Source: Egicoccus sp. AB-alg2
Lineage (GTDB): Bacteria > Actinomycetota > Nitriliruptoria > Nitriliruptorales > Nitriliruptoraceae
Direction of reading: 5' to 3'
DNA length: 64,000 bases
Assembly: GCF_041821065.1 (NCBI RefSeq)
Contig: NZ_JBGUAX010000003.1
Location: 310,001-374,000 of the forward strand
This document shows, in pieces, positions 11,077-48,051 of the stretch. The notes below the pieces were generated by a model. It saw only the letters and a program-made list of their open reading frames with translations, had not been told where the DNA came from and searched no databases. The position numbers and the translations under genes were made by a program. Numbering within the stretch: position 1 is the first letter of the stretch; each line of letters opens with the position of its first letter.

Positions 11077-14076
11077 GTGGGTGAACTCGTACGGCGGCGG
11101 CTCGGCACCATCGTGGTGCTCGGCGTGCTGCTCGTGCTCTTCAGCGCCAACCGCATCGCCGTGCTGCTGACCGACCTGTGGTGGTACGACGAGCGCGGGT
11201 TCCGGCAGGTCTTCACGACGCTGCTCGGCACCCGCCTGGGCCTGGGCCTCGCATTCGGGTTGTTCCTGGCCGCGCTGATCGCCGTCAACCTGCTCGTGGC
11301 GCGACGGCTACGGCCGTTCTACATCCCCTCGACGCCCCAGCAGGCCCAGATCCAGCGCTACCGCGAGATGGCGGATCCCTACCTGCCGTGGCTGATCGCC
11401 GGCGTCGCCGCCGTGTTCGGCTTCACCTCGGGGGTCGCCGTCAGCGCCCAGTGGGAGTCGTTCCTGCTGTGGCTCAACGGTGTCGAGGTGGGCAGCACCG
11501 ACGCACTGTTCGACGTCGACCTCGGCTTCTACCTGTTCGACCTGCCGTTCCTGTCGTTCCTGCAGACCTGGCTGTTCACCTCGCTGATCCTCACCACGAT
11601 GCTGACGGCCGGTGCCCATTACCTGCTGGGCGGCATCCGGCCCGAGGCGCAGGGCGAGAAGGTGCTGCCGTCGGTCAAGGCGCACCTCGCCGTCCTGGTC
11701 GCGGCGATCCTCGCGGTGCGCGGGTGGGGCTACTGGCTCGACCGCTACCAGCTGCTGTACTCCGAGCGCGGGACGGTCACCGGTGCCGCCTACACCGACG
11801 TCAACGCGGAACTACCGGCGCTGTACCTGCTGCTGGGCGTCAGCGCCATCGCGATCGTGCTGGTGCTGCTGTCGATCCGCCAGCGTGGCTTCCTGCTGCC
11901 GGGCGCGGCGCTGGCGCTGCTGGTCGTCGCCTCGATCATCCTCCAGGGCGCCTATCCGGCGGCGATCCAGCGGCTGCGGGTCGACCCGCAGGAGCTGGCC
12001 CGCGAGGAGGAGTTCATCGACCGCAACCTCGCCGCAACCCGGGCGGCGTTCGGACTGGACGACGTGGCGTTGCAGCCGTTCGACATCGCCAACGATCTCG
12101 ACGAGGCCGACGTCATCGAGAACGACGTCACCCTGCGCAACGTGCGGCTGTGGGAGCCGGAGGTCCTTGAGACCACCTACCAGCAGATCCAGGCGCTGCG
12201 GCCGTACTACCAGTTCAACGAGGTCGCGATCGACCGCTACGAGATCAATGGCGAGTTGCGCCAGGTCATGCTGGCGACGCGCGACCTGTCCGAGCTGCCG
12301 CCGGAGAGCGACTCGTGGCAGAACCGCCACCTGACCTACACCCACGGGTTCGGGGTCGTCGCCTCGCAGGTCAACACCGCCAACGCCGAGGGCCAGCCGG
12401 TCTTCCTCGCGGCCAACATCCCGCCCGCCGGTGAGGACGAGGTCGTCCCCGGTGAGGAGGCGGGCATCTACTTCGGCACGTTCGCCAATCCCGCCTACAA
12501 CCTGGTGCGCACCGACGCGGTCGAGCTCGACTTCGAGTCGCCCGACGGCACCGAGCAGGTGCCCACCGTCTACGACGGGGCCGGTGGCGTGGACATCGGT
12601 GGGTTCTTCCGCCGGCTGGCGTTCGCGCTGCGCTTCGGCGACTACAACCTGGTGCTGACGAACTTCATCACCGACGAGTCGCGGATCATCTTCAACCGCG
12701 AGGTCACCGACCGGGTTCGCCAGGTGGCACCGTTCCTGGAACTGGACTCCGCGCCGTACCCGGTAGTCAGCAACGGGCGCGTGCAGTGGATCGTCGATGC
12801 GTACACGACCTCCAACTCCTACCCCTACGCGCAGCGCGGCACGTTGACGCTGGGGCAGCGGCAGGTGCAGGTCAACTACGTGCGCAACTCGGTCAAGGCC
12901 GTCGTCGACGCCTACGACGGAGACGTGACGCTGTACCGCGTGGAGGAGGACGATCCGATCCTCGACGCCTGGGAGCAGGTGTTCCCGGACATCGTCGTGC
13001 CGGCCGGCGAGGCGCCGGAGGAGATCGTCCAGCACTTCCGCTACCCGCAGGACCTGTTCCGTCTGCAGGCGGACCTGTACCGCACCTACCACATCCCCAC
13101 CGCGGCGCCGTTCTACAACCGCGCCGACGAGTGGTCGATCCCGCGTGACCCGGCCTTCGCCGCCAACCAGGGCACCGGCGCGACCACGGACCTCACCGGG
13201 GCGCAGAACCAGCGGCTCATGCAGCCCTACTACCTGCTGATGCGTCTGCCGGGCGAGGAGACCGAGGAGTTCGTCCTGATCCAGCCCTACCTCGCGTTGG
13301 GCCGGGAGAACATGGTGGCGTGGCTGGCGGGTCGCTCGGACGGCGCGAACCTCAACGAGCTGTTCGCGGTGCGCTTCCCGACGGACTCGCAGGTGCTCGG
13401 GCCGTTGCAGGCCCAGGCCCGCATCGAGCAGGACGACGACATCTCCGCCTACATCACCCTGCGCGACCGCGAGGGTGTGCAGGTCCGCCGCGGCAACCTG
13501 CAGGTGCTGCCGATCGCGGACTCGCTGCTGTACGTGCAGCCGCTGTTCCTGCTCAACCCGCAGGCCGAGATCCCCGAACTGGCCCGTGTGGCGCTCGTGA
13601 TGGGCACCCGCACGGCGTTCGACACCACGTTCGCCGGCGCGCTCGGGCAGCTGCTGGGCATCCCGGTACCGGAGTCGATCGCCGAGGAAGAGGCGCGCGA
13701 TCCCGGCGTCGACACCCAGGAGGGCACCGAGGACGAGCCCGGTGCGCCCGACGGTGCCGAGGAAGAGGAGGCCGAGGAGCCGACTGACGGCGTCCCGGTT
13801 CCGGAGGACCTGCTGCGCGATGCGCTGGCGGCGTTCGCCCGGGCCGAGGAGGCGCTGCGCGAGGGCAACCTCGCCGAGTACCAGCAGGCCGTCGAGGAGG
13901 CCCGCAACCTGCTGCAGCAGGCCGCCGACGCCCAGGGCATCACCGTCGAGGAGCTCGTCGAGCCGGACGACGAGCAGTCGGACGCCGAGCTGCTCGAGGA
14001 CCTCGAGCAGGGCGAGACCGGCGCCGGTGACGCCGAGGGCGGTGACGCCGGGGGTGAGGCCGGTGACGGCGCCTGA
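11077..14076 (+). CDS. UPF0182-family integral membrane protein
   Basis: Protein of 999 residues of the UPF0182 family (COG1615; Rv3193c-like). The N-terminal third holds about seven membrane segments beginning with LGTIVVLGVLLVLFSANRIAVLL. A large extracytoplasmic domain follows, with motifs such as LTYTHGFGVVASQVN and NSVKAVVDAYDGDV. The last 130 residues are acidic and partly coiled-coil-like. Length is normal for the family. Function is unestablished; its position downstream of envelope proteases is consistent with an envelope role. The GTG start has GAAAGG 6 nt upstream and a hairpin terminator follows. Confidence 0.93.
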   Translation: MGELVRRRLGTIVVLGVLLVLFSANRIAVLLTDLWWYDERGFRQVFTTLLGTRLGLGLAFGLFLAALIAVNLLVARRLRPFYIPSTPQQAQIQRYREMADPYLPWLIAGVAAVFGFTSGVAVSAQWESFLLWLNGVEVGSTDALFDVDLGFYLFDLPFLSFLQTWLFTSLILTTMLTAGAHYLLGGIRPEAQGEKVLPSVKAHLAVLVAAILAVRGWGYWLDRYQLLYSERGTVTGAAYTDVNAELPALYLLLGVSAIAIVLVLLSIRQRGFLLPGAALALLVVASIILQGAYPAAIQRLRVDPQELAREEEFIDRNLAATRAAFGLDDVALQPFDIANDLDEADVIENDVTLRNVRLWEPEVLETTYQQIQALRPYYQFNEVAIDRYEINGELRQVMLATRDLSELPPESDSWQNRHLTYTHGFGVVASQVNTANAEGQPVFLAANIPPAGEDEVVPGEEAGIYFGTFANPAYNLVRTDAVELDFESPDGTEQVPTVYDGAGGVDIGGFFRRLAFALRFGDYNLVLTNFITDESRIIFNREVTDRVRQVAPFLELDSAPYPVVSNGRVQWIVDAYTTSNSYPYAQRGTLTLGQRQVQVNYVRNSVKAVVDAYDGDVTLYRVEEDDPILDAWEQVFPDIVVPAGEAPEEIVQHFRYPQDLFRLQADLYRTYHIPTAAPFYNRADEWSIPRDPAFAANQGTGATTDLTGAQNQRLMQPYYLLMRLPGEETEEFVLIQPYLALGRENMVAWLAGRSDGANLNELFAVRFPTDSQVLGPLQAQARIEQDDDISAYITLRDREGVQVRRGNLQVLPIADSLLYVQPLFLLNPQAEIPELARVALVMGTRTAFDTTFAGALGQLLGIPVPESIAEEEARDPGVDTQEGTEDEPGAPDGAEEEEAEEPTDGVPVPEDLLRDALAAFARAEEALREGNLAEYQQAVEEARNLLQQAADAQGITVEELVEPDDEQSDAELLEDLEQGETGAGDAEGGDAGGEAGDGA

Positions 14077-14204: not shown

Positions 14205-14282
14205 CGCGGGGTGGAGCAGTTCGGTCAGCTCGCCGGGCTCATAACCCGGAGGTCGCAGGTTCAAATCCTGCCCCCGCTACCA
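14205..14282 (+). tRNA. tRNA-fMet (initiator, anticodon CAT)
   Basis: A 78-nt cloverleaf can be drawn by hand: acceptor CGCGGGG with CCCCGCT, D stem GAGC/GCTC, anticodon stem CCGGG/CCCGG with loop CTCATAA, T stem GCAGG/CCTGC with TTCAAAT, then A-CCA encoded. Initiator hallmarks are present: the first acceptor position is an unpaired C opposite T, and three consecutive G-C pairs flank the anticodon loop. The anticodon is at 14240-14242. A perfect hairpin follows 3 nt later. Confidence 0.95.
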
Positions 14283-14284
14283 CA

Positions 14285-14314
14285 CGAAATCCCCCAGGAA
14301 ACTGGGGGATTTCG
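14285..14314 (+). terminator. 13-bp hairpin after tRNA-fMet
   Basis: Arms 14285-14297 (CGAAATCCCCCAG) and 14302-14314 are perfectly complementary around a GAAA tetraloop. Position suggests a transcription terminator for the tRNA and possibly, from the other strand, for the SRPBCC gene. A near-copy with a compensatory pair change lies at 15255-15284. Confidence 0.75.
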
Positions 14315-14494
14315 CTGTCTCCGGGGAAGTTGAGGTTTGGAGCAGGGGGTGGCTGCAGGGGCGGAATGGGGGCGGATTTCTTCACCGCCACTCGCTGCCC
14401 GTGCGGACGTCATTGCGGGCACGGCCGGCTGAACACCCGTCGCCTGTGGTGGCCCACGTGCCATGTCCAAGTACCGCCAACGACAGGACGCCCC

Positions 14495-14935
14495 CTACTC
14501 GTGGCGGCCCTGCTCCAAGATTCTCTTCAGGACCGCCAAGTTCTCGCCGACGGCCGCAGCGATCCGCTTCCCAGCGGCCCCGGCCAGCAGTCGCGAAGCG
14601 CCGGTCGCGGTGATCTGCACGGTATTGACCACCGAAGTGCCGCCGCCGCTGTCCCGGAACTCGTAGGTGAGGTGGACGGGGAGTGAGGCCAGCGTCCCAT
14701 CGAGCTCAAGCAGCTCGCCGACGCCGAACCGCCTGACCGTCAAGGTCTCCGCGGCACGGCGTGGCACGGAGCGACTCTGCTCGTAGACTGTCCCCACGCC
14801 GACAGGCCCGGGTGTCACCTTGCGCGTCTCGGTGATGGCCCAGTTCCACTCGGGCGTGTGCTCGAGGTCAGCCAGGTAGGCGAACACCTCGCCCCGCGGG
14901 CGTGCGATCTCGACCGTGTTGCTGAAACGGACCAT
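14495..14935 (-). CDS. SRPBCC-family (polyketide cyclase/START-like) protein
   Basis: Protein of 146 residues with the SRPBCC opening: hydrophobic strand, ARPRGEVFAYLADLEHTPEW, then a helix-grip fold ending in a long C-terminal helix. Such proteins bind small hydrophobic ligands; the ligand here is unknown. The ATG at 14935 has GGGAGGG close upstream. A longer in-frame reading from 15253 begins MVGAGFEPATS, which is only the antisense of the tRNA remnant and is rejected. The gene is the only one between the two tRNA-derived repeats. Confidence 0.8.
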   Translation of the reverse strand: MVRFSNTVEIARPRGEVFAYLADLEHTPEWNWAITETRKVTPGPVGVGTVYEQSRSVPRRAAETLTVRRFGVGELLELDGTLASLPVHLTYEFRDSGGGTSVVNTVQITATGASRLLAGAAGKRIAAAVGENLAVLKRILEQGRHE

Positions 14936-15221
14936 GAGAGCCCTCCCTGACCGGACAGGGCTGCTGGACGCACGCCACCGGACTACCACGCCTCGCATCA
15001 GGCCGCAAATCGGTCTTGGGCTTCGAATCCTTCGTAGGCGTAGCCACCGCATTGTCGCGGTCGCCGCATCAGCAGGGCGGAAGACTGTCGTCAGCGACTG
15101 CTGCCCTCCCCGCCACCGCCCGCACGTAACTGGACCTAGCAGGCGCTGTGCCGGATGCCCGGCCGGGGATCGGAGGGGGACGGGAAGCTGATCACCCACA
15201 GCGAGGGCCCGGCCATCCTCC
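14936..15221. other. Non-coding stretch before the tRNA remnant
   Basis: No gene, tRNA or clear terminator is recognisable in these 286 bp. The segment must contain the SRPBCC promoter on the minus strand; no confident -35/-10 pair was found. Confidence 0.3.
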
Positions 15222-15252
15222 GAGGTCGCAGGTTCAAATCCCGCCCCCACCA
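15222..15252 (+). pseudogene. Remnant of tRNA 3' half (anticodon-side to CCA)
   Basis: The first 20 nt are identical to 14249-14268 of tRNA-fMet (variable region, T arm, first half of the T stem closing). Next comes CCGCCCCCACCA with a mismatch in the T stem and three acceptor bases missing before ACCA. No D arm or anticodon arm can be folded upstream. It is therefore a partial copy and cannot make a tRNA. The copied terminator hairpin follows. Confidence 0.75.
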
Positions 15253-15254
15253 CA

Positions 15255-15284
15255 CGACATCCCCCAGGACACTGGGGGATGTCG
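15255..15284. terminator. Second copy of the tRNA terminator hairpin, with compensatory change
   Basis: Arms 15255-15267 (CGACATCCCCCAG) and 15272-15284 pair perfectly around GACA. Against 14285-14314, the fourth base pair has changed from A-T to C-G on both arms and one loop base differs. It may now terminate the convergent DUF305 gene, whose stop is at 15317. Confidence 0.65.
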
Positions 15285-15316
15285 CCGTTCCCGGGGAGCC
15301 GCTGGGCGACCTGTCG

Positions 15317-15901
15317 CTAGGCGTCGAGGTCGCGGAGCAGGGCGCGCATGCGGCCGATCTCCACCTGCTGATCGTCGAAGAGCTTCTTCGCGAATCGGAT
15401 GAGGTCCGAGTCCGGGGCGGCTTCGGTGAAGTACCGCTCGACCATGTCGAGGGCTCCCTCGTGGTGCTCGATCATCCCGGCGAGGAATCGCCGGTCGAAC
15501 TCGCGGCCCGCGGCGGAGGCCATCGCTTCCAATGTGGCGTCGTCGAGCATGCCGGGCATGTCGTGGTGGTGGTGCCCATGCGACGTCGCGACGCCGTCCG
15601 GAAGTCCGTCGAGCCAGCCGCGCATGAGGTCGATCTCGTTCGCCTGCACGCGGCCCATCTGCCGGGTCAGCCAGCGGACCTCGTCGCTGGCAGTGCGCTC
15701 CTCGACCCAACCGATCATCAGCACCGCCTGTTCGTGGTGCGGGATCATCATCTCGAGGAATTCTCGGTCGACCGAAGCCGCCGCGTCAGGGGTGCTCTCG
15801 GCAGTCGGGATCGCCTCGTCCGGTGCGCTGTCGCTCGACGTGGTGCAGCTGGCCAGTAGCGCGAGGCCTGCGGCCACAGCTGGCAGATGCCGCCGTACCA
15901 C
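15317..15901 (-). CDS. DUF305 lipoprotein
   Basis: Protein of 194 residues with a lipoprotein signal: VVRRHLPAVAAGLALLASC, lipobox LASC with Cys19, then a Ser/Asp/Ala-rich linker. The mature part is a DUF305 four-helix ferritin-like fold with two paired motifs, MMIPHHEQAV and GMIEHHEGAL, and a His cluster (HGHHHHD) between them. The His/Met pairs suggest metal, perhaps copper, binding, but this is family-level inference. The GTG at 15901 has GGGAGGA just upstream; the longer frame to 16222 is antisense of the next gene. Confidence 0.9.
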   Translation of the reverse strand: MVRRHLPAVAAGLALLASCTTSSDSAPDEAIPTAESTPDAAASVDREFLEMMIPHHEQAVLMIGWVEERTASDEVRWLTRQMGRVQANEIDLMRGWLDGLPDGVATSHGHHHHDMPGMLDDATLEAMASAAGREFDRRFLAGMIEHHEGALDMVERYFTEAAPDSDLIRFAKKLFDDQQVEIGRMRALLRDLDA

Positions 15902-16005
15902 CGTTCCTCCCCGTGCGCTCGGCCGGGTAGGAAACCAGACCGAGCCGCTGATCGGACGCGAGACCCGCAGGTGCGTTCTCGTGGTGGTCGTTTGACCGAC
16001 TGTGG

Positions 16006-46371: not shown

Positions 46372-48000
<1,629 letters not shown>

Positions 48001-48051
48001 CGGCGCCCGGCTCCCCATCGTCGCGACCCGGGCGCGGACCCTACTGGGCGC

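Follow-up and report, generated by a model that had tools for sequence, protein, structure and literature searches.

A probable decayed attachment site downstream of tRNA-fMet in an Egicoccus genome, at an apparent integration hotspot of its class

Introduction

Genetic elements that use the 3' ends of RNA genes as attachment sites provide the closest described systems for the locus reported here. In Islander, small deletions near the discriminator have been recorded in the tRNA fragments that islands displace (PMC4383910). In phage CrimD, a Cluster K1 mycobacteriophage, attP consists of a core corresponding to the 3' end of tmRNA, with exchange near the T-stem, together with a stem-loop terminator and paired 11-bp arm-type sites (PMC3203893). 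The locus to be compared with these systems lies in a stretch of 64,000 nucleotides from Egicoccus sp. AB-alg2, referred to throughout as the window, and consists of a tRNA-fMet gene and a partial copy of that gene a short distance downstream.

Results

A repeat of the 3' part of tRNA-fMet and its hairpin

A single tRNA, tRNA-Met(CAT) at 14205-14282, was identified in the window by ARAGORN and Rfam, and is preceded by a UPF0182 gene at 11077-14076 (Pfam). This tRNA-fMet had one full match in its own genome, while the remaining weaker tRNA matches belonged to an ordinary tRNA-Asp and to a further complete tRNA-Met gene. An earlier note on this DNA had claimed that the 3' part of the tRNA and the hairpin behind it recur about 1 kb further on, and this was confirmed. 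The segment 14249-14327, which comprises the 3' part of tRNA-fMet, the hairpin and 13 nt, recurs at 15222-15297 with 69 of 79 columns identical (87%), and in a search of the whole 4.84-Mb genome BLAST joined both repeat segments into one 79-column match (E 4e-21). The component direct repeats were 14249-14280 and 15222-15253 (91%, spacing 973) and 14271-14327 and 15241-15297 (84%, spacing 970). The 3-nt shift in spacing is due to the deletion from copy 2 of GCT (14276-14278), directly 5' of the discriminator A. Homology outlasts the hairpin by 13 nt, ending at 14327 and 15297, which is beyond the account given in the earlier note, and the whole-genome search detected no further copy of the repeat. 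The features of the locus are as follows.

14205-14282, plus strand: tRNA-fMet (CAT), sole full copy found in the genome; putative attB or reconstituted attL gene (ARAGORN, Rfam, own-genome search)
14249-14282, plus strand: tRNA 3' part that recurs in copy 2, from nt 45 to CCA (direct repeats, BLAST)
14285-14314, plus strand: hairpin 1, terminator-like, with a 13-bp stem, a GAAA loop and no T-run; probable terminator of tRNA-fMet (fold z -4.65, perfect pairing)
14315-14327, plus strand: 13-nt tail common to both copies (direct repeats, BLAST)
14356-14377, plus strand: imperfect 11-bp-phased repeat, GCAGGGGCGGA followed by ATGGGGGCGGA; weak candidate for decayed integrase arm-type sites (exact 8-mer, spacing 11)
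14495-14935, minus strand: SRPBCC (Polyketide_cyc2) gene, presumed cargo (Pfam)
15222-15252, plus strand: tRNA-fMet 3' fragment of copy 2, with a 3-nt deletion and one T-stem pair disrupted; presumed decayed att site (direct repeats, BLAST)
15255-15284, plus strand: hairpin 2, with 13 perfect pairs; possible 3'-end terminator of the minus-strand DUF305 gene (fold z, pairing)
15285-15297, plus strand: tail of copy 2, at which homology ends (direct repeats, BLAST)
15317-15904, minus strand: DUF305 gene, the first past the presumed scar, with its stop codon 33 nt from hairpin 2 (Pfam)

Copy 2 is a displaced 3' fragment downstream of the full tRNA gene and in the same orientation. In its T-stem T14269 is replaced by C15242, opposite an A, and the change is uncompensated, which indicates that the tRNA part has not been maintained as a tRNA. 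Together with the loss of GCT, this means that copy 2 cannot be a tRNA, as had been proposed from its missing acceptor bases. Identity begins at tRNA nt 45, immediately before the T-stem. Further upstream, before 14249 and 15222, similarity was not significant (p 0.33), so that no significant anticodon-arm remnant was found ahead of copy 2, and no trace of the tRNA 5' half was detected near it. Three crossover subsites, the anticodon loop, the T loop and the T/acceptor junction, served as the yardstick for the fragment start; a start at nt 45 with no significant upstream similarity is compatible with crossover in the T-stem, with decay or with duplication independent of an integrase.

Hairpins 1 and 2 each contain 13 perfect Watson-Crick pairs, with fold z values against shuffled sequence of -4.65 and -5.23, respectively. 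Both are stable stem-loops directly 3' of a gene, as expected of an intrinsic terminator. No canonical T-run was found after either stem and the hairpins are therefore called terminator-like only. Hairpin 2 sits where a terminator of the DUF305 gene would be expected and could end that transcript. The hairpin sequence was found at just two sites in the 4.84-Mb genome, both at this locus (two or fewer mismatches), and was absent from 65 other genomes of the class (one or fewer mismatches) and from the viral contigs searched.

The two hairpins differ by one compensated pair (A14288-T14311 in hairpin 1, C15258-G15281 in hairpin 2) and one loop base. The coordinated A-T to C-G change with perfect pairing, described in the earlier note, is thus present, but the conclusion drawn there, that it implies selection on the hairpin, could not be upheld. 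Only one pair is involved, a random pair of stem substitutions left the stem perfect in 1.4% of trials, and one template-switch event in replication can rewrite both arms of a hairpin (PMC8794818). The pattern is suggestive; a single pair cannot tell selection from a template switch, and selection is therefore unproven.

The interval and its neighbours

One recognisable gene was identified by Pfam between the two copies, the SRPBCC gene (Polyketide_cyc2, E 4.9e-16), in agreement with the earlier description of an interval holding this gene alone. Among 35 related genomes there was no SRPBCC homologue at E<=1e-10, and the nearest relative, at 49% identity, was found in an unplaced actinobacterial MAG. 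No tRNA-fMet fragment was seen in the loci of SRPBCC relatives examined, save for one full-length match in L184. The reading frame of the SRPBCC gene is open upstream through copy 2 (14495-15253, minus strand). The resulting ORF of 252 aa opens with MVGAGFEPATS..., which is antisense tRNA sequence, and automatic annotation may set the start too early; the ATG at 14935 is where the Pfam match starts.

No integrase was detected by tblastn in the interval or in the whole window, which points to a scar rather than an island. The imperfect repeat at 14356-14377 could be a remnant of integrase arm sites. It contains an exact 8-mer at spacing 11, as do 0.9% of random 150-nt segments, a figure for that spacing and place alone, and the repeat is displaced relative to the repeats of related genomes.

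tRNA-fMet as an integration hotspot in related genomes

The locus was compared with its counterparts in relatives, as had been suggested in the earlier note. Many of these are drafts, and tRNA-fMet is the end point of several contigs; ORF positions in relatives were derived with a simple script and were relied on only where profile searches confirmed them. In the congeners G002 and G003, genes upstream of tRNA-fMet were approximately 59-89% identical to those of the window, up to the tRNA itself. Downstream, G002 had no match to the window over 100 kb, and G003 had just one matching gene over about 500 kb, an AMP-ligase gene 64 kb past the tRNA. Congeners keep the upstream genes and carry other DNA 3' of tRNA-fMet, the interval being absent or replaced in relatives. 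The window AMP-ligase gene (46372-48018, minus strand), the only shared downstream gene found, is 85% identical to that of G003 and lies 32 kb past the tRNA; it may mark the resumption of the common backbone. In G005 a DUF305 gene, 34% identical to that of the window, lies directly behind tRNA-fMet and its hairpin (L037:10955-11585), and the gene upstream is not UPF0182. This arrangement was considered as evidence of an empty site and was dropped, given the absence of UPF0182 upstream of the G005 tRNA and the lower similarity of its DUF305 to that of the window than is seen for copies elsewhere in congeners.

A single full tRNA-fMet match was found in nearly all relatives searched, the exception being G043 with two, both at contig ends. 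Fragments of tRNA-fMet reaching from the anticodon loop to the 3' end were present in several genomes (G007, G022, G004, G011, G044, G045 and G046). Gene and fragment are 9.7 kb apart on one contig in G007; G022 has two fragments 3.6 kb apart, plus a third, and G004 has two that are 5.6 kb apart. In G045, G044, G057 and the congener G001, tyrosine-integrase genes follow tRNA-fMet closely, in convergent orientation to it, and G022 has such a gene beyond a fragment. The two full-length integrases examined contain Arm-DNA-bind_4, SAM-like and Phage_integrase domains (PHROG 1), and the nearest phage relatives of the G045 integrase were integrases of actinobacterial phages (33-37%). These observations show tRNA-fMet to be an integrase hotspot in the family and class. 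The fragments, islands and integrases lend strong support to the earlier proposal of an att-type repeat and scar of a lost element at this gene, and the comparison showed upstream synteny, differing downstream DNA and islands lying between gene and fragment.

Possible defence genes were also observed near tRNA-fMet or a fragment. These were a SNF2-type helicase with a NOV_C domain, resembling HmaA/DrmD/BrxH (G002, L036:12829-16056), an AbiEii match (G022, L040:6916-7812) and an E1-E2/JAB fusion with similarity to accessory proteins of CBASS (G035, L046:11264-13003).

Attachment blocks with their own terminators

In relatives the sequence past the tRNA had a regular order, with the tRNA 3' part followed by a private terminator hairpin and then by 11-bp-phased repeats, for example ATGGGTGCCGTATGGGTGCC and ATGGCCGCCGAATGGCCGCC. 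At 11 of 26 tRNA sites the hairpin was followed by a word of 7 nt or more that recurs at a spacing of 11-12 nt, compared with 4% of background segments. At six loci (L010, L016, L018, L019, L020 and L027) words of the form ATGGNNNCC..ATGGNNNCC, spaced by 11 bp, occur right after the terminator, about 34-36 nt past the tRNA, and at L040 words with 11-bp spacing occur past a fragment. Spacing is constant while the words differ between elements, a pattern that would be expected if these were arm-type sites serving integrases that differ in specificity.

Blocks were found to cross genera. The block of G026 (g4) is identical to the fragment block of G022 (g9) at 76 of 76 nt, and one block is common to G002, G003, G007, G009 and G018, which belong to four genera. 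Conversely, the hairpins of G000, G001 and G002, all of the window's own genus, are unrelated to one another. This suggests that each element carries its terminator and arm sites in attP, which is the simplest reading of the comparison. In the gene and fragment pair on one contig of G007 the hairpins are unrelated, whereas those of the window are homologous. A search for the attachment block in viral contigs returned three matches to the tRNA part. Two were complete tRNA genes and the third was the end of a tRNA lying at the edge of a contig, so that none represented this element.

Discussion

The sequence at 15222-15297 is probably the decayed att site of a tyrosine-integrase element, either a prophage or a genomic island, that inserted into tRNA-fMet. 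The attP of such an element would bear the tRNA 3' part, a replacement terminator and integrase arm sites. Insertion would restore a functional tRNA ending in the terminator of the element and shift the former 3' part, with its terminator, downstream. Later loss of the integrase and of most of the element would have left about 0.94 kb with one SRPBCC gene. Since the two terminators of the window are kin, either the element acquired its attP from this lineage, or the site received two insertions, one after the other, by members of a single element family. We infer both the origin of this copy by integration and the order of events from the arrangement of the locus. The copy is of the right part of the right tRNA, lies in the expected orientation and on the expected side, is separated from the gene by DNA whose one gene has no homologue in 35 relatives at E<=1e-10, and has a deletion beside the discriminator, close to where small deletions are reported in island-displaced fragments. 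Against integration stand the lack of an integrase, the start at nt 45 rather than in the anticodon loop, the weak and displaced arm repeat and the homology of the two hairpins.

Several of these points would also be accounted for by a segmental duplication independent of any integrase. In that case replication error or illegitimate recombination would have placed a copy of the region between the tRNA variable loop and a point beyond the terminator 1 kb further on, and hairpin 2 would have been retained to terminate DUF305. The span of homology over the hairpin and 13 nt beyond it, the start at nt 45 where relatives have an anticodon-loop boundary, and the absence of a remaining integrase all suit such an event. 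However, it would need the coincidence of duplicating the 3' part of just that tRNA which serves as the integrase hotspot of the family, in the expected orientation and on the expected side, with foreign-looking DNA between the copies. We regard it as unlikely.

The order of copy 2, a tRNA 3' part followed by a terminator, is also what would be left of a further tRNA-fMet gene, in tandem with the first and equipped with a terminator, after decay of its 5' half. Nearly all relatives have one full tRNA-fMet match, and neither a 5' half nor a significant anticodon-arm remnant was found, which makes a tandem gene highly improbable. The earlier note had named a further alternative, for which it proposed a search for more copies of the hairpin, namely that the hairpin is in common use as a terminator in the genome and its likeness to the tRNA a chance T-arm match. 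T-arm sequences are indeed conserved among tRNAs. The restriction of the hairpin to two sites in the genome, its absence from 65 other genomes of the class and from viral contigs, and a match that is continuous over 79 columns rule this alternative out for practical purposes.

A more novel reading is that the unit of approximately 1 kb (gene, tRNA-fMet 3' part and hairpin) is no remnant of a decayed element and instead forms a minimal non-autonomous element with cargo, att site and replacement terminator, mobilised in trans by the integrases of other tRNA-fMet elements. This is very improbable. If it were true, the terminator of an apparently single-copy initiator tRNA would be a horizontally swapped part.

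The probable scar is itself ordinary, another case of a known type. Of more interest is the wider pattern, in which an initiator tRNA that is apparently single-copy appears to have its terminator replaced by elements. The tRNA-fMet gene, apparently the sole initiator tRNA gene in most of these genomes, is a recurrent insertion point in the family and class. Elements at this site appear to bring their own terminator and arm repeats, and their cargo in relatives includes likely defence genes. This suggests that a terminator can be the property of a mobile element in transit and not of the host lineage, and that the DNA 3' of tRNA-fMet is a good place to seek mobile and defence genes in the class.

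Among known systems, the tDNA islands of Islander (PMC4383910) resemble the locus in pairing a complete tRNA gene with a 3' fragment that is displaced downstream without change of orientation, and in damage near the discriminator. They differ in that the window has no integrase and an interval of only about 1 kb; Islander filters require an integrase and a length of at least 2 kb, and the locus would therefore be rejected. Integrases with Arm-DNA-bind_4, SAM-like and PF00589 domains (PHROG 1), for which the nearest phage match was Rhodococcus phage REQ2 (37%), lie directly downstream of tRNA-fMet in G045, G001, G044 and G057, while the window has none, and one of them is presumed to have acted here. 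The attP of CrimD (PMC3203893) differs in its target, tmRNA, and its arm sites have a doubtful counterpart in the window and clear ones in relatives. Its order is the same as that seen at tRNA-fMet, with a core from the 3' end of an RNA gene, next a stem-loop terminator and then paired 11-bp arm repeats.
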